Origin: Planctomycetia bacterium
GTDB taxonomy: Bacteria > Planctomycetota > MHYJ01 > WSZJ01
DNA length: 44,955 nt
Assembly: GCA_020849035.1 (NCBI GenBank)
Contig: JADLHC010000127.1
Span: 1-44,955 of the forward strand
Direction: 5' to 3'
Part shown: one piece after another, positions 1,591 to 11,399 of the stretch
Layout: the number at the start of each line of letters is the position of its first letter
Numbering within the stretch: the stretch's first letter is position 1
Program-made: the position numbers and the translations under genes
Notes under the pieces: model-generated
The model's database searches: none
Told to the model about the DNA's origin: nothing
The model's input: only the letters and a program-made list of their open reading frames with translations

Positions 1591-2844
1591 TTACTTCCGC
1601 TTCTTCTGCAGCTTCTTCAGCTCGCGATCGCACGCCGCGACCATATCGGAAGCGCCGGCCTTTTCGAAGAGGGCCCGCGCCTCGGCCATGCGGGTTTCGG
1701 CCTCGGCGGACTCGCCGGCGGCCGAGCAGGCCATGCCGAGGGACATGAGGCAGCCGGCGCGCTGGTCGTCGAGGTCGCCGCCGGCGCGGTCGTAGAGGGC
1801 GAGGGCCTGCCGGAAGAGGGACACGGCGCCGGGGGCGTCGCGGCCCTCGCGGAAGAGGTCGCCGAGCACTTCGGTGACGAACCCCTGCTCGAACCACGCC
1901 TCGCGCTCGCCGAAGATCCTCGCGGCCCCTTCGTAGCACTCCCTCGCGCGCGCCGCGTCGTCGCCGGCGCGGGAAGCGTGGCCGGCTTCGAGCATGGTGC
2001 GGGCCTGGGGGAGCGCGGCGCCGATCTCCGCGTAGATGGCGGCGGCCTCGAGGAACGCGTCGGCGGCCTCCCTCGGCTCGCGCATCGCGACGAGGCACGC
2101 TCCCTGCGACCGGATGGCCCGGGCTTCACCGGGTCGCGACTCCGCCGTGCGGAACGCCTTCCCCGCATCCTCGAGCAGGGTCAGCGCATCCTCGAGCCCG
2201 TCCTCGTCGCCGGCCATGAAGCACCCGGCGTTCATGCGCAGCCGCCACCCGAGCCGCCGCGGGTCCTTCCCCTCCTTCCGTTCCAGCGCGAGATCCTCGT
2301 CCGCGGCGGAGCTCAGCTCGTCGCTCTCCATGATCATCGCCTCGAGCCGGTCCGCGACCGCGCGCGCCGCCACGTCCCCCGTCCGCCCGCCGGTCTCGAC
2401 GAACAGGTCCTCCGCCTCCTCCGCCTGCAGCGCCCCGTCCAGGATCTTCCCGAGCCGGGCGTTCGCCGCGGCGCAGGAGAGGAGCGCCTCTGCGCGCAGC
2501 CCGCGGTCGTCGGCTTCGGCGGCGAGCTTCGCCGCCTCCTCGAAGGCGTCGGAGGCGGCGCCCGCGGCGTCGCGCGCGCCGGCGAAGCGCCCGTGGACGA
2601 GGGCGATGGCGCCGCGCAGGGCGAGCCAGGCGCGGCGCCCCGCCGCGTCGGTGGCCTCCCCGGCGGCGCGCACGCGCGCCTCCGCCTCGGCGAGCGCCTG
2701 CCTCGCTTCCGCCTCGTCCTCCCACGCGGCGCAGGCGCGCGCGAGCTCCGTCCACGCCCGTCCCTCGGCCGCCGGGCCCTGGCTGCGCGCGGACTCGACC
2801 TTCTTGCGCAGCCCCGCCAGCTCCGCGTCGCGCTCCGCGCTCAT
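1591..2844 (-). CDS. TPR-repeat protein, alpha-helical
   Basis: A 417-aa, almost entirely helical protein with TPR-like repeats (Ala/Leu/Glu-rich helix pairs, for example around residues 240-390). It has no signal peptide or membrane segment, so it is probably cytoplasmic. TPR domains bind other proteins; no catalytic motif is visible. The ATG at 2844 overlaps the stop of the upstream lipoprotein gene by four bases (ATGA), which argues for translational coupling and fixes the start. It is the last gene of the minus-strand run that begins with the SNF2 ATPase. The C-terminus is lysine-rich. Function unknown; a scaffold role for the cluster is only inference. Confidence 0.8.
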   Translation of the reverse strand: MSAERDAELAGLRKKVESARSQGPAAEGRAWTELARACAAWEDEAEARQALAEAEARVRAAGEATDAAGRRAWLALRGAIALVHGRFAGARDAAGAASDAFEEAAKLAAEADDRGLRAEALLSCAAANARLGKILDGALQAEEAEDLFVETGGRTGDVAARAVADRLEAMIMESDELSSAADEDLALERKEGKDPRRLGWRLRMNAGCFMAGDEDGLEDALTLLEDAGKAFRTAESRPGEARAIRSQGACLVAMREPREAADAFLEAAAIYAEIGAALPQARTMLEAGHASRAGDDAARARECYEGAARIFGEREAWFEQGFVTEVLGDLFREGRDAPGAVSLFRQALALYDRAGGDLDDQRAGCLMSLGMACSAAGESAEAETRMAEARALFEKAGASDMVAACDRELKKLQKKRK

Positions 2845-3413
2845 TTGCCCTGCAGCCACGCGTCGATGGCCTTCGCGATCTCCAGCGTCGGCCCGCCCGC
2901 GGTTCTCGGCGGCCATTTCGTCGGCACGAACCTCGCCACGACCGAGCCGCGCAGGAAGACGATCGCGTCCGACTCGGCAAACGCCTTCTCGCCGACGTCG
3001 CTGATCGACTGCCCGCTCCGCCACTCCGAGAACGTCTTCGCCGCCCCGTACGGCGCCTGGTGGATGTAGATCTCCACCCGCACCCGCCGCAGGTCCGGCT
3101 TCGGGTTGCCCTTTTCGTCCTTCGCCTTGTCCCACGCTTGATGGCAGTAGTTCTTCACGAGGAGGGAATCCAGCAGGTTCGCGCGGAGCTGGCCGCTGAT
3201 CTTCTCTCCCGCGTAGATGTCCAGCTCCGCCGCGCCCGCCGGGTACTTCGCGCCGGGCGACTCCGCCGGAACCCAGTCCCCGGCCGAGGGGTACTTCTTC
3301 AGAACGATCGCACCCGCCGGCTGCCCGCCCCCGTTCCCGCCGCCGTCCTCGGGTCCGGTCGTGCAACCGGCCACCATGGCCGCCATCGCCGCCGCCAGCA
3401 GTCCCCGCATCAT
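2841..3413 (-). CDS. Small lipoprotein of unknown function
   Basis: A 190-aa protein with a lipoprotein signal peptide. The hydrophobic run from residue 4 ends in the lipobox VAGC, so the mature protein should be lipid-anchored on its Cys. A Gly-rich linker follows, then a mixed alpha/beta domain. I do not recognise the family. The gene begins ATGATG; the first ATG (3413) overlaps the stop of the upstream gene by four bases, and the second ATG (3410) is an alternative. Its own stop overlaps the next start. It therefore sits translationally coupled between a cytoplasmic zinc-ribbon protein and a TPR protein, an odd mixture of compartments for one operon. Confidence 0.8.
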   Translation of the reverse strand: MMRGLLAAAMAAMVAGCTTGPEDGGGNGGGQPAGAIVLKKYPSAGDWVPAESPGAKYPAGAAELDIYAGEKISGQLRANLLDSLLVKNYCHQAWDKAKDEKGNPKPDLRRVRVEIYIHQAPYGAAKTFSEWRSGQSISDVGEKAFAESDAIVFLRGSVVARFVPTKWPPRTAGGPTLEIAKAIDAWLQGK

Positions 3414-3982
3414 GCCTTCTCCTCCTCGAGCAGCTCCGCGGGAAGCACGTACTCCTCCGTGTCCTGCGCCTGCTCCGCCGACGCCATCCCCCATTCCTTG
3501 CGCAGCACGTCGTCGAAGTCGTCGCTGGTCCGCGACACGCAGCGCAGCCCCTCGACGAACTCCTCGTAGTCCAGCCCCTCGATCCCGCGGCTCCACACGA
3601 CGAAGAGCTGCCCGCCCTCGAGCGCGAAGCGGGCCGCGCCGGTCGCCGAGAAGTTCAGCTCGAGGATGCGGCGAAGGGCAAGCTGGGTGCCTTTCTTCGG
3701 GAGATTGAGGAAGGGCGAGGAGATGCGGATTTCGTCGCCGGTGAGCATCTGGAGAGTCACCTGGGCAGAGCCGAACTTCGCGAACCAGACCTCGCCGTTC
3801 TTCTGGAGCGCGACGCCGGACTCCTTCGCGTAGCGCTCGACGTACCCGGCAACGAGGGCCGGCGCGTGCTCGCCGCGCTGGGGGACGACGAGGATGTCGC
3901 CGCACTGGGACTTGAACGTCTCGCCGGGCTGCTTCCCGGAGACGTCGTAGGTGTTGTTGCACTTGCGGCAGCGGAGGAGCAT
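3410..3982 (-). CDS. Zinc-ribbon protein with YbjN/CesT-like C-terminal domain
   Basis: A 190-aa protein. The N-terminus (residues 1-40) is a short ribbon with C5 and C8 in a CxxC pair, then a single Cys in QCGD, and resembles the N-terminus of the SNF2 ATPase in this cluster. Residues ~50-170 look like the YbjN/type III chaperone-like fold: alternating strands and helices with the pattern L..IL.LN, then FAL..G.L.V. That fold usually binds partner proteins. The ATG at 3982 is chosen because the Cys pair follows at once; upstream codons to 4180 are arginine- and proline-rich and look non-coding. Its stop overlaps the lipoprotein start by four bases. The fold assignment is by eye and moderate. 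Confidence 0.75.
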   Translation of the reverse strand: MLLRCRKCNNTYDVSGKQPGETFKSQCGDILVVPQRGEHAPALVAGYVERYAKESGVALQKNGEVWFAKFGSAQVTLQMLTGDEIRISSPFLNLPKKGTQLALRRILELNFSATGAARFALEGGQLFVVWSRGIEGLDYEEFVEGLRCVSRTSDDFDDVLRKEWGMASAEQAQDTEEYVLPAELLEEEKA

Positions 3983-4180: not shown

Positions 4181-5857
4181 CTAACCGCCTCCCCCCCCGT
4201 CCCCCGCCCGCAGCTTGCGCATCCCGAACAGCCTCGACCCGCCCCACGCGCCGATCGGCCGCAGGTCCTTCGCGAGCAGGACGCGGTACCGGTTCCAGAA
4301 GGTCTTCCCCTCCAGACGGAAGCGCGTCTTCGACTCGGCCTTCCTCCAGGTCGCCCCCTGCGCCTCGGGGAGGAACGCGAGCGCGGCGGCGACGGCGGGG
4401 TCGCCGGCGGGCGCATCCGCCATCGCGCGGCACGTCGAGCAGCTCCCGCCCGCGACCGCGGTGTCGAGCACCGCGTCGCCGCACTCCGGGCACTTCACCA
4501 GGTGCTTCGGGCACGCGGCCTTGCCGGTCGCGTCGCAGATCGACTGGTGCTCGCCGCACAGCTCGATGTCGCACGACCCGCAGCGCTTCGCGTGGTCCGT
4601 GCACGACACCATCCTGCAGACCCCGCACTCGAACGCGTGCTGCCGGCAGAAGGCGCGGCAGCAGCGGACGCATTTGAAGAGGTGTTTTTCGCAGCAGAAC
4701 TGGGCGCAGGCCTCGCAGGGGGCGCCGTGGGCGGGGCAGGCGATCGCGCCGCAGGCGCAGGCCTTCGTGTGTTCGGCGCAGAGGCCGGCGCCGCAGGACT
4801 GGCAGTAGCGGCGGCATTTCGGGCAGAGGAGCACGTCGTGGCCGGGCGCCCCGCAGAGGGCGGCCTCGCCGGGCGGGCCGCCGCAGAGGTCGCAGACGGG
4901 CGCGTTGACGTTGCCGGTCGGCGGGAACCAGAGGACCTCGCGCGAGAACTTCCGCGCCCCTGCCGCGAACTCCAGCGGCACGCGCGCGGCGGTCCCCGTC
5001 ACCGCGAGCGCGGCGACGGCCTCGACGTGCGCGCTGGCACGGTGCCGGTCCGCGACCTCGAGCAGCCGCAGTTCGCGCTCGCGCTCGAGGTTCCGCAGCC
5101 GCGACGCCGCTTCCTTCTTCGCCTCCTCCCCGCGCGACTCCGACTTCTGCTCCTTCAGCTCTCCCGCGAGGTGTTCGAAATACGTCGTCACCTGCTGCGT
5201 CTCCTTCGCCAGCCGCGGCGCCGCGCGCTGCTCCGCCAGGCGCGCCCTGCGGTCGCCCTCCCGCTGCGCCACCGCCGCGGAGGCGTCCCGGAGTCGCGCG
5301 CGGTCGCCGGGGGACACGGCGGGGAGGGAGACGGGTTTCCCGGAGACAGCCATCTTCGGAAGCGAGTCCGCCGGGATCTCGAAGGCGGCGCCTTCGCGCC
5401 CGACGAACGCGGCGACGAGCGCGTCCTCGCGCTCCGGCCCCTCGACGCGCAGCCGGAACAGCACCGCCGTCCCCGCGAACGGCTCCACCGCCGGCGTCCC
5501 CGCCGTCACCGACCCGCCCCGCACCGCCAGCGCGCCCTTCGCCGCCGCCTTCGCCTGCGCCGGGTCGGGGTCGCCCTCGAACGCCACGGCGCTCGCCGCC
5601 CCCGCCGCGCCGAGCGCCTCGAGGAGCGACTTGAAGATCGGCGCGCCCGGCACCACGAGCTCGAGGTCCCGCTCCGACGCCTTGTAGAGCTCCCGGTCGA
5701 ACGTCAGCTGCAGCAGCGCCCGGTCGTCGAAATGCGGCGCCGCCGCCGGCGGCAGCGCGACCTCGAGGACACCGGGCTCCGGCTCGCGGATCTCGGCGCC
5801 GAGAGCGCCGAACGCGGTGCGGAGGAAGGCGGCGTCTGTGGTCACGGGGGGAATCAT
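4181..5857 (-). CDS. RapA_C-like domain / coiled coil / Cys-rich zinc-binding protein
   Basis: A 558-aa protein in three parts. Residues 25-170 carry a pattern resembling the C-terminal domain of RapA/HepA-type SNF2 proteins (LLQLTFDRELY near 48-58, then a hydrophobic helix in place of HPL). Residues ~185-275 are charged and helical, starting with the TTYFEHLAGEL segment. Residues 322-476 hold dense Cys/His pairs (CxxC and CxxxH repeats), probably binding several zinc ions. A basic tail follows. The helicase encoded upstream stops just after its ATPase lobes, so this protein may be its detached C-terminal partner. That is inference from pattern, not a database match. The ATG at 5857 lies 11 bases after the preceding stop. 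Cytoplasmic. Confidence 0.8.
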   Translation of the reverse strand: MIPPVTTDAAFLRTAFGALGAEIREPEPGVLEVALPPAAAPHFDDRALLQLTFDRELYKASERDLELVVPGAPIFKSLLEALGAAGAASAVAFEGDPDPAQAKAAAKGALAVRGGSVTAGTPAVEPFAGTAVLFRLRVEGPEREDALVAAFVGREGAAFEIPADSLPKMAVSGKPVSLPAVSPGDRARLRDASAAVAQREGDRRARLAEQRAAPRLAKETQQVTTYFEHLAGELKEQKSESRGEEAKKEAASRLRNLERERELRLLEVADRHRASAHVEAVAALAVTGTAARVPLEFAAGARKFSREVLWFPPTGNVNAPVCDLCGGPPGEAALCGAPGHDVLLCPKCRRYCQSCGAGLCAEHTKACACGAIACPAHGAPCEACAQFCCEKHLFKCVRCCRAFCRQHAFECGVCRMVSCTDHAKRCGSCDIELCGEHQSICDATGKAACPKHLVKCPECGDAVLDTAVAGGSCSTCRAMADAPAGDPAVAAALAFLPEAQGATWRKAESKTRFRLEGKTFWNRYRVLLAKDLRPIGAWGGSRLFGMRKLRAGDGGGGG

Positions 5858-5868
5858 ACGCCGGAAAC

Positions 5869-6363
5869 TCAGGGCCTCGTCGCATGGAAGCGGGCGTCGC
5901 CGGCGGGTGCGGCCTCGAACCTGCCCGCGGCGTTGACGGCGAGCACTTCGTCGCCGTGCACGCCGGGCTCGCAGCAGGCGATCCAGACCCAGAGGTTGTC
6001 GTCCGTCGGCGCGGCGGACGGGCCCCGGTAGCGCTTCCCCGTCCCGGGACAGACCGCCAGCTCGGGCTTTCCGATCGGGGACGTCGTGTCGTCGTTCAGG
6101 ATCGCGTCCCAGAACTCAGGACCGGTCGCCGCCGGCCAGGCGTGGTACTTGGCGCGGTACAGCTCCGCCGACACCCCCATGTACATCAGTCGGGCTTCGC
6201 ACTGCTCGCGATCGCCGTGGCGGAGGCCGCGCGACCGAAGTGCAACCGCCGCGAGGGCGAGGATCAGGAACACCGCGACCAGCACGAGGGGGGAGACGCC
6301 GGGGCCTGTCCGCGGTCCGGGGGGCGGGGCTGGAGAGGAGGCGACCAGGTCACCGGAGTTCAT
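5869..6363 (-). CDS. Single-pass membrane protein, pseudopilin-like (paralogue 1 of 3)
   Basis: A 164-aa protein with a short Pro-rich cytoplasmic start, one membrane helix (residues ~24-43) and an extracytoplasmic domain. The juxtamembrane helix ends in a Y..KY...P segment typical of pseudopilin bodies. The prepilin peptidase motif (G followed by FTLIE-like residues) is absent, so it is not a normal pilin. Two relatives lie at 35296-35862 and 39750-40310. Conserved features include LxxxGV..LY near the membrane and paired Cys. The start overlaps the nitroreductase stop by four bases (ATGA). Function unknown. Confidence 0.8.
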   Translation of the reverse strand: MNSGDLVASSPAPPPGPRTGPGVSPLVLVAVFLILALAAVALRSRGLRHGDREQCEARLMYMGVSAELYRAKYHAWPAATGPEFWDAILNDDTTSPIGKPELAVCPGTGKRYRGPSAAPTDDNLWVWIACCEPGVHGDEVLAVNAAGRFEAAPAGDARFHATRP

Positions 6364-7172
6364 CTGCGGCTGAACCCCTCGCGTTCCATCCACTCCCTGA
6401 GCACGGCGCGCCCCGTCATGGCTTTCGGCGAGCCGTCCACGCGCTTTCCGCTCCGCTGCGCCCACGTGACGTCGGCCTTCTGGCCCTGCGAGGCGTAGAA
6501 CGCGGCCATGCGCCGGTCGAACTCTGCCGTGTCGGGGGCGGCGTCGTAGCGCTCGCGGAACCAGACCGCGGGCTGCGACAGCCGCGGCTTCGCCTCCGCC
6601 CGGCACGACGCCGCCACCTTCCCGAGGCAGACGCCGAACACCGGCAGGCACCGCCCCGGCAGCCCCAGCAGCCGCTTCACCCCCTCGACGTCGTTGCGCA
6701 GCCCGCCGATGTAGCAGCAGCCGAGGCCGGCCGCCTCGGCGGCGGCGGTGAAGCGCTCCGCGGCGAGGGCGGCGTCGATGCAGCCCATGACGAGGAACTC
6801 GGCGTAGTCGAGCCCGGCGGGGTTTTCGCCGGCGGCGCGCGCGGCGGTCTCGATGCGGAAGAGGTCGACGACGAACGCGAAGAACCACGGGGCTTCCCGG
6901 ACCTGCTTCTGGTCGCCGCAGAGCTTCGTGATCGCCTCGCGGCGGGCGGGGTCCTGCACGCTGATCGCGCTCCAGAGCTGGAGGTGCGAGGACGTCGCCG
7001 CGGACTGCGCGGCGGCGAACAGCACGCGCACCGTGTCCTCGGGGACGGGCTCGGGCGCGAAGTCGCGCACCGAGCGGTGGCGGAGGAACGGCGTCAGCGC
7101 CGGAATCTCGGACGGCGGCGCCGCGTCGCCGTAGCGGGCGCGCCAGAGGGCTGCGAAGGTCTCGGAAAACAT
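6360..7172 (-). CDS. NfsA/FRP-like nitroreductase family flavoprotein
   Basis: A 270-aa nitroreductase-family protein. RSVRDF near residue 33 is the FMN-phosphate binding motif, and GLGCCYIGGLRND (~149-161) matches the conserved glycine-rich segment of the NfsA/FRP subgroup. These are FMN-dependent NAD(P)H oxidoreductases acting on nitro compounds, quinones or free flavin. The natural substrate here cannot be told. The ATG at 7172 has a good ribosome site (GGAG, 7-base spacing). It lies 39 bases after the TPR gene and overlaps the pseudopilin-like gene by four bases. A redox enzyme inside a helicase-headed cluster is unexpected. Confidence 0.9.
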   Translation of the reverse strand: MFSETFAALWRARYGDAAPPSEIPALTPFLRHRSVRDFAPEPVPEDTVRVLFAAAQSAATSSHLQLWSAISVQDPARREAITKLCGDQKQVREAPWFFAFVVDLFRIETAARAAGENPAGLDYAEFLVMGCIDAALAAERFTAAAEAAGLGCCYIGGLRNDVEGVKRLLGLPGRCLPVFGVCLGKVAASCRAEAKPRLSQPAVWFRERYDAAPDTAEFDRRMAAFYASQGQKADVTWAQRSGKRVDGSPKAMTGRAVLREWMEREGFSRR

Positions 7173-7211
7173 GGCGGGTCTCCGTTGGGAAGGGCGAAGC
7201 GTACCCGGAAT

Positions 7212-8567
7212 TCAGCGGCGGCGGACGATCGTCCCCGCGAACGGGGGGATCCCTGCGCGGTCGCACTCCGCGGCGACGCCCTCGGCCTGGCGGCGGAGAG
7301 TCTGTGGTTCGCCGGCCCTGGTGAGCGCGCGCCGGCACCGGCTCCAGGCCGCGCGCGCCGGGGGCACCTCCCCGCGCCGCAGGTGGACGGCCGCGAGCAC
7401 GCCCATCAGCGCGCCCTCGCTGCCCCTGTCGCCGAGGCGGCGGCAGGCGCCGGCGCCTTCTTCGAGAAGCGGCACCGCTTCCGAGTCGCGCCCCATCAGG
7501 TGCATCAGGCGGCCCAGGTTGCCCCGGTAGACGGCGACCGACCGCTGGTCCCCCAGTTCGGAGAGGAGCGCGATCGCGCGATGCAGGGTCTCCTCGGCGA
7601 GCGCGAAGCGCCCGTCGTCCATGTAGAGGTTTGCGAGGTTTCCGTAGCCCAGTCCCTCCGCGCGGAGGTTGTGCGATTCGCGCGCCATCCGCAGGGAGAC
7701 CTGCCAGATCGCCTCGGCCTTTCGCGGGTCACCGGCCTCGCTCCAGTGCAGCCCGAGGTTGGCGCGCGCCGCCGCGGCTTCACGCAGGTCCCCCGCCGCG
7801 TCGAGCAGGCGGATCGCCCGGGCCAGAGCGACGCGTGCTTCCTTCGCGCGGCCCATGACCGAGCAGGCGTGCCCGAGGACGACGAGGCTGCGGCCCTCGA
7901 GCTTCCGGTTGCGGCGACGATGGGCCATCGCGATGGCGCGCCGCAGGACGCCGGCTGCCTCGCGCACGCGTCCCGTGGCGCTGAGGATGATGCCGAGAAG
8001 TTGAAGGGCTTCCGTGGCGGGGTCGCCGGTTCGTCCGGCCGAGCGGGCGGCGCGGCGGGCGAGGGACTCGGCCTCGCGGGCCCGTCCGGTGCGGTAGGCA
8101 AGCGCGGCCTGGGCGCGGAGGACATTGGACCGGAGCGCCCGGTCCCGGGGCGCGGCCGCGAGCGCTGCTTCGAGCAGCCCCGCCGTTTCGCTGATGTCGC
8201 CCGCCAGGCGCGACGCTTCGCCGGCACGGTAGAGCGGCTCGGCGCGCGCGGCGCCGGGCAGCAACCCGGCGAGGCGGCGCCAGCAGCGGAGGGCCGCGGG
8301 CAGGTCGTAGACGCGGTCGCCGTGCTCGGCGGCGCGCCGCAGGCAGTCGCACTCCTTCGCGGCGAACGAAGGGTCTCCCAGCGCCTCTCGCGCGGCCCCG
8401 GCATGCCGCGCCATGTCCTCCCAGGCCCCCGGCCCGCCGCCGCGCTCCTCTTGAATCGCCAGCGCGAGCGCGTGAAGCTCCCCGCGCCGGCGCGGCATCT
8501 GCAGCTGGTACGCCGCATCGCGGAGGAGCACGTGGCGGAACAGGTACGCACGCTCCGCGCCGCTCAC
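7212..8567 (-). CDS. TPR protein with STAND-type winged-helix remnant at N-terminus
   Basis: A 451-aa protein. It opens with a segment like YLFRHVLLRDAAYQ (residues 8-21) and then an R.ELH motif. These match the end of the winged-helix region that follows the NTPase domain in AAA/STAND regulators with TPR tails. The rest is ~8-10 TPR-like repeats, with repeated GxxxGNLA/LG motifs. The NTPase half is missing. Start is GTG at 8567, overlapping the helicase stop (GTGA), so the short form looks deliberate and coupled to the ATPase gene. In-frame codons further upstream lie inside the helicase gene and do not encode a P-loop. Probably a cytoplasmic protein-binding partner. Confidence 0.8.
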   Translation of the reverse strand: MSGAERAYLFRHVLLRDAAYQLQMPRRRGELHALALAIQEERGGGPGAWEDMARHAGAAREALGDPSFAAKECDCLRRAAEHGDRVYDLPAALRCWRRLAGLLPGAARAEPLYRAGEASRLAGDISETAGLLEAALAAAPRDRALRSNVLRAQAALAYRTGRAREAESLARRAARSAGRTGDPATEALQLLGIILSATGRVREAAGVLRRAIAMAHRRRNRKLEGRSLVVLGHACSVMGRAKEARVALARAIRLLDAAGDLREAAAARANLGLHWSEAGDPRKAEAIWQVSLRMARESHNLRAEGLGYGNLANLYMDDGRFALAEETLHRAIALLSELGDQRSVAVYRGNLGRLMHLMGRDSEAVPLLEEGAGACRRLGDRGSEGALMGVLAAVHLRRGEVPPARAAWSRCRRALTRAGEPQTLRRQAEGVAAECDRAGIPPFAGTIVRRR

Positions 8568-10444
8568 GCGCGCGTCCCCGCCGGCGGTGGCACCGGCGCC
8601 GCCCCGCCGCCCACGCCGTCCAACACCCGCGCGTCCAGCGCCTTCGCCTCCTCGTACTCGCGCCGGAGACCCTTCAGGTCGTCCCCGTACTTGTCCACCC
8701 GCTTCCGGAACTCCTCGTCGTCCTTCGAGCCCAGGTAGATGTCCAGGAGGTCGTCCTCGACCCGCGTCTTGCCAAGGATCATGTCCAGCTCGCCCACGAT
8801 GAGACGGAACAGCTCGATCTTGCGGTCGAGGAGGTCGAGGAGCGCGACCTCCAGCGTGTCCTTCGCGATCATGTTCGCGACCTGCACCTCCTTCGTCTGC
8901 CCGAGGCGGTGGACGCGGCCGATGCGCTGCTCGACGCGCATCGGGTTCCACGGGAGGTCGTAGTTCACGATGCGGCGGCAGTGCTGGAGGTTCACGCCCT
9001 GCCCGGCGGACTCGGTCGCGACCAGGACGCGTTTCTCGCCGCGGAACTCCGCCACCGCCCGGTCCTTCTCGGGACGCGACATCTCCCCGTGGAAGCTCAC
9101 GCAGCTCACCCCCTCCCGCGTCAGCCGCTCCTCCAGCATCTGCTGCGTCCGCCGGTACTGCGTGAACACGATGCACTTCTCCGCGTCCTGCCGCAGCACG
9201 TCGCACAGCCGCTCCGCCTTCCCGACCTTCTTCACCGCGTGGCACGCGTCGCGCAGCTCCGCGATCGCCCGCGCAGCCGGCCCGTCCTTCGCCCGCGGCG
9301 TCAGCTTCTCGTCCACCGTGAACGCCAGCGACTGCGGGCTCGACCCGACCTGCTTCAGGATCGCCATCGCCACCAGCCGCGAGTTGTCCGCGTACACCTG
9401 CGCGAACTCCGGCGACCGCACGAACCGCGTCGCCAGGTCGTACACCCGCCGCTCCTCCGGCTCCAGGTCCACGTTCACCGTCGCCGCCCGCCGCGGCACG
9501 AACTGGATCCCCACCTCCGTCCGCCGGTTCCTCACCATCACCGCCTTCAGCAGCTGCTTCAGCCGCTCCGGGTCCTTGCACTTCCGCCGGTCCTTCGTGT
9601 CCAGGAACGCCTCCTTGAACTGCCCCAGCGTGTACAGCTGCCCCGGCCGCAGCAGCGTGATCATGTTGTACAGCTCAACCAGGTCGTTCTGGATCGGCGT
9701 CGCGCTCAGGAGCAGCAGGAACTTCTTCCGCAGCGCGTTCACCAGCTTCCAGTTCTGCGTCCGGTGGTTCTTCAGGTTGTGCGCCTCGTCCACGATCACC
9801 AGCTCGTGCTGCATCTTGAGAAGCGCCTGCTGGTTCCGCGCGCCCTTCGCCGAGTCGATGGAGGCGACGACGAGCCGCTTCTTCCATTCCGACTCGTCCT
9901 CCGGGATCGCGAATTCCAGGTCGAACTTCGCCTCCATCTCGTCGCGCCACTGCGTGACGAGCGACGCGGGCGCGAGGACGAGGACGCGGCGGGTGAGGCC
10001 GCGGACGAGCATCTCCTTGATGATGAACCCCGCCTCGATGGTCTTCCCGAGGCCGACCTCGTCGGCGAGGAGGGCGCGCCCGCCGAGCTCGCGCAGGACC
10101 TTGAGCGCGGTCGCGACCTGGTAGTCGTGCGGCTCGATCTCGTGAACGAGGTCCAGCGACAGGAGCCGGTCGAACGCCGGCGGCAGCGCCAGCCGCTCCG
10201 CGTGGAACCGCGTCAGGAACGCCTCCGGCGCGTCCGCGCGCCCCTCGTGCAGCGCCGCCTCCCACGCCGTCCCGGGTTTCGGCGCCGGCAGAGGGCGCGG
10301 GGGAAGGGGCGGCAGCGTGGCGAGCATGTCCTCCGACGGCGGCAGCTTCGCGCCCAGCCCGCACTTGCACCGCACCGGCTGCAGCGGCCAGCTCGGGAGG
10401 CGGTAGCGCGCGCCGCAGGCGCCGCACTGGAGGGTGGCGGGCAT
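8564..10444 (-). CDS. SNF2-family ATPase with N-terminal zinc ribbon
   Basis: A 626-aa SNF2/RapA-like ATPase. The N-terminus has C7, C10, C26 and C28, a probable zinc ribbon, followed by a Pro-rich linker. Motor motifs are complete: Walker A DEVGLGKT (128-135), DEAH (219-222), SATPIQND (247-254), FTQY (427-430), and QRIGRVHRLGQ (506-516). Such enzymes translocate on double-stranded DNA and remodel DNA-bound proteins. Bacterial RapA-type proteins normally extend several hundred residues past the last motif; this one stops after ~110, ending in an Ala/Pro tail. The 558-aa protein downstream may supply the missing domain. ATG at 10444; its stop is coupled to the TPR gene. Confidence 0.95.
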   Translation of the reverse strand: MPATLQCGACGARYRLPSWPLQPVRCKCGLGAKLPPSEDMLATLPPLPPRPLPAPKPGTAWEAALHEGRADAPEAFLTRFHAERLALPPAFDRLLSLDLVHEIEPHDYQVATALKVLRELGGRALLADEVGLGKTIEAGFIIKEMLVRGLTRRVLVLAPASLVTQWRDEMEAKFDLEFAIPEDESEWKKRLVVASIDSAKGARNQQALLKMQHELVIVDEAHNLKNHRTQNWKLVNALRKKFLLLLSATPIQNDLVELYNMITLLRPGQLYTLGQFKEAFLDTKDRRKCKDPERLKQLLKAVMVRNRRTEVGIQFVPRRAATVNVDLEPEERRVYDLATRFVRSPEFAQVYADNSRLVAMAILKQVGSSPQSLAFTVDEKLTPRAKDGPAARAIAELRDACHAVKKVGKAERLCDVLRQDAEKCIVFTQYRRTQQMLEERLTREGVSCVSFHGEMSRPEKDRAVAEFRGEKRVLVATESAGQGVNLQHCRRIVNYDLPWNPMRVEQRIGRVHRLGQTKEVQVANMIAKDTLEVALLDLLDRKIELFRLIVGELDMILGKTRVEDDLLDIYLGSKDDEEFRKRVDKYGDDLKGLRREYEEAKALDARVLDGVGGGAAPVPPPAGTRA

Positions 10445-10486: not shown

Positions 10487-11384
10487 CTACGCGAGCACGA
10501 ACGGCTCCTTGTGTCCCGTGCTGCACCAGAGGCAGCGCTCGACGTCTTCGCGCTCGACGGCCATGGAGTCCGCCCCCATGGCCGCGACGGCGGCGAAAGC
10601 GCGCAGGTCCGCGACGAGCCGCTCCACCTGCGCCCCGGCTTCCGCGGGAACGAACGCCACCAGGCCCGATACGTCCCGGCTCAGGCACGCGATTCCCCGA
10701 AGCTGTCCGGCGTGGTCCGCCACGGGGAACTTCGCGCTCAGGAAGAGCCTCGGCGCTCCCGAGACGCGCGTCGCGTTGAGGTAGAGGCACGGGCGGCGCG
10801 TCCGCAGGACAGCCTGATCAGACGCGCGGACTTCCTCGAGAAGGGTCGGCCTGTCGAATATCTCCGCGTCGAGCCGCCCCTCGACGGCGGACGGAATGCG
10901 CCCCAGCAGGGATGCTCCGGCCGCATTCATGAGCAGGTACTTCCCGGCCGTGTCCTTGACGAAGACGGCGTCCGATCCCCCGGAGTAACTCCTCCGGATC
11001 GCCTCGACGGCGGCGTCGAGGAGGCCGCCCCTGGGCGCCAGCTCGCGGACAAGCGAGCGCAGCTGATCGGGCAGGCTTCGCCAGCGCGAGTTCGACCGGG
11101 GATCCGGCCCCCGCCCCCTGCTCCAGCGCCGCCGGGTCGCCCGACATCAGCACCCGGACTGCCCCGGGACACCGCCGCCGCGCCTCTTCCAGCACCTCAA
11201 CTCCCGAGATGCCGGGCATCTGCAGATCGGACAGCACGAGATCGAAAGAAGCGTCGCGAAGCAGCGGGAGCGCGGCCGCCCCGGAAGCCGTGCTGACGTC
11301 GGCGCCCGCGGAGGAGAGGATCAGGCGGAAGAGCCCGAGGACGAGCAAGTCGTCGTCGACGACAAGGACGCGCACGAGCGCCAT
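10487..11384 (-). pseudogene. Receiver-PAS response regulator, frame broken by one extra base
   Basis: The first frame, from ATG 11384, encodes a complete receiver domain: VVDDD at 8-12, phospho-acceptor D53 in LSDLQMPG, and K103 in LALAKP. Near 11072 the coding frame changes. The second frame continues sensibly (DQLRSLVRELAP), then gives a PAS-like domain (VFVKDTAGKYLLMNAAG) and ends at 10487. The span is one base longer than a multiple of three. Removing one base between about 11060 and 11084 would give a ~298-aa protein. A sequencing error, a true mutation or a programmed shift are all possible. GGAGG sits 6 bases before ATG 11384. It lies 42 bases upstream of the SNF2 gene and could be its regulator. 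Confidence 0.75.
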
Positions 11385-11399
11385 CACTCACCTCCCCCA

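Follow-up and report, generated by a model that had tools for sequence, protein, structure and literature searches.

A two-gene form of the RapA-type ATPase: an SNF2 motor and a separate partner with a predicted RapA Spacer and C-terminal domain fold

The motor gene and its partner

The DNA analysed here, called the window below, is the 44,955-nucleotide contig JADLHC010000127.1 of a Planctomycetia bacterium (assembly GCA_020849035.1), a whole contig of a genome in 349 contigs that is 89.5% complete with 3.4% contamination. Its minus strand encodes an SNF2 ATPase of the type of Escherichia coli RapA (HepA) and, in the same gene cluster, a 558-residue protein, here called the partner, which is predicted to carry the Spacer and C-terminal domain (CTD) fold of RapA in a chain of its own. 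The two genes and the regions of the partner are the following:

8564..10444, minus strand: SNF2/RapA-type ATPase motor, 626 residues, with the Pfam domains SNF2-rel_dom and Helicase_C
4181..5857, minus strand: partner, 558 residues, with a region like the RapA Spacer and CTD (about 1-310), a seven-unit array (about 322-476) and a C-terminal domain (about 485-545)
4913..5857, minus strand: the RapA Spacer and CTD-like region of the partner, drawn from iterated partner profiles, the predicted local distance difference test (pLDDT) and structural alignment to RapA 708-968
4430..4894, minus strand: Cys-rich repeat array of the partner, putatively zinc-binding, with the pattern C-x2-[HD]-x3-C at a step of 14-15 residues

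The motor is complete as judged by eye from its motifs (DEVGLGKT, DEAH, SATPIQN and QRIGRVHRLGQ), and Pfam places SNF2-rel_dom at residues 124-353 (3.3e-35) and Helicase_C at residues 409-515 (4.5e-28). A CxxC...CxC stretch at its N-terminus looks like a zinc ribbon by eye (Pfam E 0.087 only). The first-pass annotation of this DNA had remarked that the SNF2 protein stops soon after its last motor motif, which is correct: by the motor profile only 26 residues follow the motor, compared with 284 in E. coli RapA and 279 in a fused RapA from a genome of the same phylum. The Pfam model for the missing part, PF12137 (RapA_C), finds no match at E<=1 in the SNF2 protein and none in the window's genome. 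As this domain spans residues 605-965 of E. coli RapA, the cut between the two genes falls inside the Pfam domain, just past the motor.

An AlphaFold2 model of the partner, built on a 65-row alignment, has pLDDT values that mostly exceed 85 between residue 11 and about residue 350, apart from a drop around 160-180; in the zinc region they are low. Structural alignment of this model with VIA-align ranks RapA first (8so8, Z 9.1 over 239 residues, rmsd (root-mean-square deviation) 6.7, RapA 708-968) and second (8spg, Z 9.0), and RapA returns at ranks five and six (8t0l_F, Z 8.2, rmsd 5.5; 6bog_A, Z 8.2). All RapA rows pair model residues 1-291 with RapA 707-968 in order, whereas the unrelated rows around them cover only a helical hairpin at residues 211-273. 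A second, independent model is that of YqhG from Bacillus safensis (pLDDT 92.8). Foldseek against the PDB returns four matches for it at E<=0.001, all of them RapA, the best at 2.5e-5 with a probability of 1.00. RapA also takes the fifth row, and the next, unrelated row has an E of 0.34. VIA-align likewise puts five RapA entries on top (Z 8.3 to 5.6). The Bacillus model thus matches RapA and nothing else at E<=0.001, which argues that PF11079, the YqhG family of “unknown function”, is by its modelled fold a detached RapA Spacer and CTD. For the window, the models place the Spacer and CTD fold of RapA in the second protein and not in the motor's chain. The earlier suspicion that the N-terminus of the 558-residue protein resembles the C-terminal part of RapA/HepA is borne out by this structural comparison, with RapA as the top VIA-align match of the partner and the only Foldseek match of the Bacillus protein at E<=0.001, and by the collinear profile comparison described next.

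At the level of sequence, the partner has no match in Pfam, NCBIfam or PADLOC at E<=1, and the relationship emerges from profiles. Homologues were found in 8 of 99 related genomes at first, and a profile of the N-terminal region then found them in 32 of 392; all five genomes of the window's genus encode the protein. An iterated profile gathered 99 frames that unite Bacillus YqhG and the window's relatives in one family, in which the window partner scores E 8.1e-55. The B. safensis YqhG (266 residues) matches PF11079 with 381 bits (2e-114), and one partner from a related genome reaches that model with 27.5 bits (cut-off 25). The partner region is of the size of the 284-residue tail behind the RapA motor, and a profile of 95 partner relatives aligns to a profile of seven RapA C-termini over 200 collinear columns (score 42.0, E 2.4e-5, probability 76%); 30 column shuffles reached at most 16.8 and the reversed profile 16.9. 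A single RapA sequence gives a weak result against the partner profile (hhalign probability 14.6), and the seven-row RapA profile resolved the relation. Used as direct probes, PF11079 caught 2 of 199 genomes of the phylum, one of them over the cut-off, and PF12137 caught 4 of 149, two of them over the cut-off; both Pfam models are therefore too narrow. A likeness to RPB8, which appeared when a seven-row partner profile was compared with solved structures, reached only E 0.27-0.45 and was dismissed. A search of plasmids with a partner protein gave no match.

Conservation and linkage of the pair

The linkage of the two genes was read from 80 loci of named genomes that were selected only for their SNF2 protein, namely the best 80 of at least 580 confirmed relatives (from 589 pattern matches). 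A partner is encoded in 73 of these loci. In 72 it lies downstream of the motor on the same strand, at distances that range from an overlap to 3.5 kb; in the remaining one (L112) it is encoded on the other strand, at a distance of 4.3 kb. Two of the seven loci without a partner end at contig ends (L157, L158), and in the other five (L105, L118, L124, L127, L139) the partner was found elsewhere in the genome in every case. Motor and partner occupy separate frames in all 73 partner-bearing loci, with no fusion of the pair type seen among them. As a control, 20 loci with SNF2 proteins of other kinds (L019-L033 and L036-L040, mostly with flanks of about 1.5 kb) were read, and none holds a partner. 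Among the 24 genomes nearest to the window's, in which pair-type motors are told by much higher scores, 8 encode the pair and 16 lack both genes. For 84 linked pairs the distances between motors and those between partners correlate with r = 0.91 (permutation maximum 0.08), as expected of co-inherited genes. The search for the pair in other genomes that the first pass had proposed thus came out in its favour, with 72 loci linked and the partner kept in all five unlinked loci that could be tested. Of the two results that it had given as refuting the idea, a lack of structural match to RapA_C and a lack of joint conservation, neither was obtained.

Two side observations concern the arrangement of these loci. 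Motor and partner are unlinked in Caldilineaceae and related Chloroflexota (L105, L118, L127, L139), and in two Bacillota genomes a single locus (L128, L147) encodes two distinct motor-partner pairs, one on each strand.

In a tree of the motors, from which nine short or duplicate fragments had been removed beforehand, 103 pair-type motors, including those of the window and of Bacillus, form one group apart from RapA (support 100). The support for the pair group itself is 42, rising to 91 without the long branch L096. Among the phyla represented are Bacillota, Cyanobacteriota, Thermodesulfobacteriota, Chloroflexota, Armatimonadota, Gemmatimonadota, Nitrospirota and Myxococcota; the two-gene form of RapA is widespread across bacteria. 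The arrangement had been described as unfamiliar, yet as a gene pair the split is neither rare nor new, since it is that of Bacillus yqhH-yqhG. The description of the halves as “detached” assumes a fused ancestor, and the tree gives no order for the split and fused forms.

The window differs in the spacing of the pair. The partner gene had been placed three genes downstream of the motor, which is right if it is taken to mean three intervening genes, and in another genome of the same genus (G003) the halves are about 12 kb apart. As motor, partner and a YbjN-like gene are adjacent in a genome of the same class (G008), the separation looks derived within the window's lineage.

The Cys-rich array and the neighbouring genes

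Behind its RapA-like region the partner carries the dense Cys/His region that had been pointed out before: its 558 residues include 31 Cys and 12 His, and every one of the Cys lies within residues 322-476. Seven units of the repeat start at residues 360, 374, 389, 404, 419, 434 and 449, and a longer pattern, CxxC-x3-5-CxxH/D, occurs five times, as against 0.09 times in shuffled sequences. Because of this Cys/His pattern the repeats are predicted to bind zinc. The array is not confined to the window's genus. In the partner of G008 the units number 11 and follow each other at exactly 15 residues, and four Chloroflexota partners have 58-60 Cys past the RapA-like region. Overall, 17 of 100 labelled pairs have at least 20 Cys there; the 3 of the 103 pair motors without a partner label are L124, which has two partners, and L157 and L158 at contig ends, and the labels of L105, L118, L127, L139 and the window's genus were set by hand. 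On the motor tree the distribution of Cys-rich tails needs six changes, four of which are forced by well-supported branches. By eye, the C-terminal segments that follow several of the arrays look alike. The extreme case among the zinc-type arrays is a partner homologue in genome G103 (L085:6316-9681) with 126 Cys in a 789-residue tail.

The genes on the minus strand run in the order SNF2, tetratricopeptide repeat (TPR) protein, nitroreductase, short protein with a hydrophobic stretch, partner, YbjN-like protein, DUF6599-like protein and second TPR protein. Besides the motor and the partner these are:

7212..8567, minus strand: TPR gene between the halves (TPR_12, 2.6e-19), with a GTG start that overlaps the SNF2 stop
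6360..7172, minus strand: nitroreductase between the halves (PF00881, 9.6e-21)
5869..6363, minus strand: short protein between the halves with one hydrophobic stretch and no Pfam or NCBIfam match
3410..3982, minus strand: gene like YbjN or a type III secretion chaperone, with an N-terminal Cys motif (weak Pfam matches to YbjN, 2.7e-4, just below the cut-off, and to TY-Chap1, 0.0017)
2841..3413, minus strand: DUF6599-like protein
1591..2844, minus strand: second TPR protein

The intergenic gaps from the SNF2 gene to the partner gene are -4, 39, -4 and 11 bp, from which these genes look co-transcribed, and the stretch resembles a single operon. Pfam supports the earlier naming of the TPR and nitroreductase genes between the halves; the label “pseudopilin-like” for the short protein at 5869-6363 remains unproven, as it matches nothing in Pfam or NCBIfam. 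No counterpart of the TPR gene at 7212-8567 was seen in the cluster of G003. A nitroreductase lies near the SNF2 gene in G003 and G001 as well, and the short protein has homologues in G001 and G002. The YbjN-like gene adjoins the partner gene in the window and in four of the five relatives in which the partner region was read, and lies 6.8 kb off in the fifth. Its N-terminal Cys motif (window 3410-3982; L041:7809-8393) resembles the Cys motif of the SNF2 protein. At 10487-11387 on the minus strand, a response-regulator receiver and a PAS domain stand in different frames of what appears to be a single gene, so that a frameshift, through sequence error or decay, is likely.

Function, rival explanations and known systems

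E. coli RapA recycles RNA polymerase. The explanation that we consider probable for the window is that motor and partner are the subunits of one RapA-type ATPase machine acting on RNA polymerase. The SNF2 protein would be the motor subunit, and residues 1 to about 310 of the partner would provide what E. coli RapA carries past its motor (about 708-968, the Spacer and C-terminal domains). The two subunits presumably come together as a machine like RapA, bound to RNA polymerase, in which ATP-driven DNA translocation would remodel or release stalled or post-termination complexes while the second subunit would help to dock and control the motor. In the window's lineage the second subunit would have gained the zinc-repeat array and the C-terminal domain, which probably add a surface for binding polymerase or nucleic acid. 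A broader proposal, offered tentatively, is that RapA is a two-subunit machine (YqhH-YqhG) in many phyla and a fused one in E. coli, and that the free subunit takes up lineage-specific modules, with the zinc arrays of the window, of Chloroflexi, Gemmatimonadetes and others serving as a docking or zinc/redox-sensing surface on a polymerase-recycling machine.

The link to the polymerase draws on published work. In E. coli, residue D744 of the RapA Spacer contacts the zinc-binding domain of polymerase β′, and deleting the domain nearly abolishes the activation of the ATPase (PMC8501970); a contact of RapA with the same β′ domain is also described via the RapA N-terminal domain (PMC8666675). B. 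subtilis YqhH is equated with HepA/RapA and listed as an RNA polymerase interactor (PMC7385302). Among the N-terminal extensions of 60 pair-type motors (extensions of at least 100 residues, plus that of the window), TPR modules occur in 11, a zinc ribbon in 7, a PcrA/UvrD Tudor domain in 5 and a protein kinase in 2. This Tudor domain is an RNA polymerase interaction domain that was shown to bind the polymerase (PMC5397179). The Spacer contact, the polymerase listing of YqhH, the Tudor extensions and a screen, cited below, that found yqhG along with mfd and topA therefore favour a two-subunit RapA on RNA polymerase.

Several results weigh against this explanation. A plain Foldseek search of the PDB with the partner model itself returns nothing at E<=0.001, with RapA outside the first 50 rows, and the VIA-align values (Z 8-9, rmsd 5.5-11) amount to a modest match, in part presumably from domain movement. 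Neither PF12137 nor PF11079 matches the partner at E<=1 in Pfam. The N-terminal Tudor pair (PF18337, PF18339), which Pfam recognises in E. coli RapA, is absent from the Pfam results for the window motor and for its first 99 residues. For purified YqhH of B. thuringiensis, both an ATPase and a helicase activity are reported (PMC10054049), so that YqhG may have a regulatory role and not be indispensable.

The same B. thuringiensis work, in which loss of yqhH leads to sensitivity to ultraviolet (UV) light and lower UV survival (PMC10054049), could also be read in another way, namely that the pair is a two-subunit SNF2 remodeller whose main targets are damaged DNA or other DNA-protein complexes. 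The helicase activity of the purified protein and the variety of the N-terminal extensions, of which only five in 60 bear a Tudor domain, would fit this. It nevertheless seems unlikely, as the partner matches the part of RapA with the Spacer that touches the polymerase and B. subtilis YqhH is cited as polymerase-associated. Less probable by far is a stand-alone zinc-array scaffold whose link to the motor was lost in the window's genus: other genes do lie between the halves here and about 12 kb separates them in G003, but all five genomes of the genus keep both genes, G008 has motor, partner and YbjN-like gene side by side, and other array-bearing lineages retain both genes even though they are unlinked.

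Two further explanations are highly improbable. The RapA likeness might be a shared arrangement of coiled coil and β-structure, with the genes adjoining for regulatory reasons, and many helical-hairpin proteins do match residues 211-273 of the model. The RapA rows, however, run in order through residues 1-291 while the others stop at the hairpin, four orders of magnitude separate RapA from the next unrelated Foldseek row of YqhG, the profile comparison is collinear across 200 columns, and the partner is kept even where it is unlinked. A role in anti-phage defence, as a module akin to DISARM, BREX or Dpd, which have SNF2 helicases, is suggested by the top NCBIfam and PADLOC scores of the motor, which belong to DrmD, BrxHI and DpdE, and is hardly to be expected all the same: these partial matches lie far under the NCBIfam cut-offs (DrmD 267 bits against 610, DpdE 236 against 500), and among the six cluster proteins scanned with PADLOC only the motor and, weakly, a TPR protein find a match, with none for the second subunit.

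The gene pair itself is already in databases as yqhH-yqhG. No statement equating YqhG with a detached RapA C-terminus was found in a literature search that left most subscription papers and the Snf2 family survey cited in PMC8501970 outside its range, nor was a paper found there that joins yqhG with SNF2, helicase and Bacillus. In the papers searched, one names yqhH and yqhG together and yqhG appears in few Bacillus papers; the name often stands for an E. coli protein that is unrelated, or the letters have another meaning. The extracellular-DNA screen that picked up mfd and topA also picked up insertions in B. subtilis yqhG, there called unknown (PMC3487849), and yqhG is listed in a table of sporulation genes of Bacilli (PMC3533761). 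PF11079/YqhG now gains a predicted fold and a testable function, and on this reading the Bacillus RapA homologue YqhH has so far been studied without its second half. The prediction is that YqhG should bind YqhH and alter its ATPase or polymerase activity. In addition, a zinc-type array with a 15-residue repeat, missed by all Pfam models, is attached to the second subunit in several phyla. The halves three genes apart, and a partner with seven 15-residue repeats and a C-terminal domain, are the distinctive features of the window.

Among known systems, the DISARM DrmD, BREX BrxHI and DpdE helicases share a related SNF2 motor with the window; they differ in that the window motor stays far below their family cut-offs, has a dedicated second subunit that PADLOC does not match and stands in a cluster without a recognised companion defence gene among the six proteins scanned. 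The likeness to E. coli RapA (HepA) extends over the SNF2 motor, with its Walker A, DEAH and helicase C motifs, and over the Spacer and CTD that follow, which the partner matches at 708-968. RapA is one chain and the window system two; RapA has a Tudor pair that was not found in the window motor, and the second half in the window adds a zinc-type array. YqhH-YqhG of Bacillus (PF11079) is the same gene pair, with a motor in the same tree group and a YqhG that belongs to the same profile family as the window partner and has the same structural match to RapA. The window partner falls short of the PF11079 model itself, unlike B. safensis YqhG. In Bacillus, yqhH and yqhG are adjacent and the B. safensis YqhG has no array, whereas in the window the halves are separated and the array is present.

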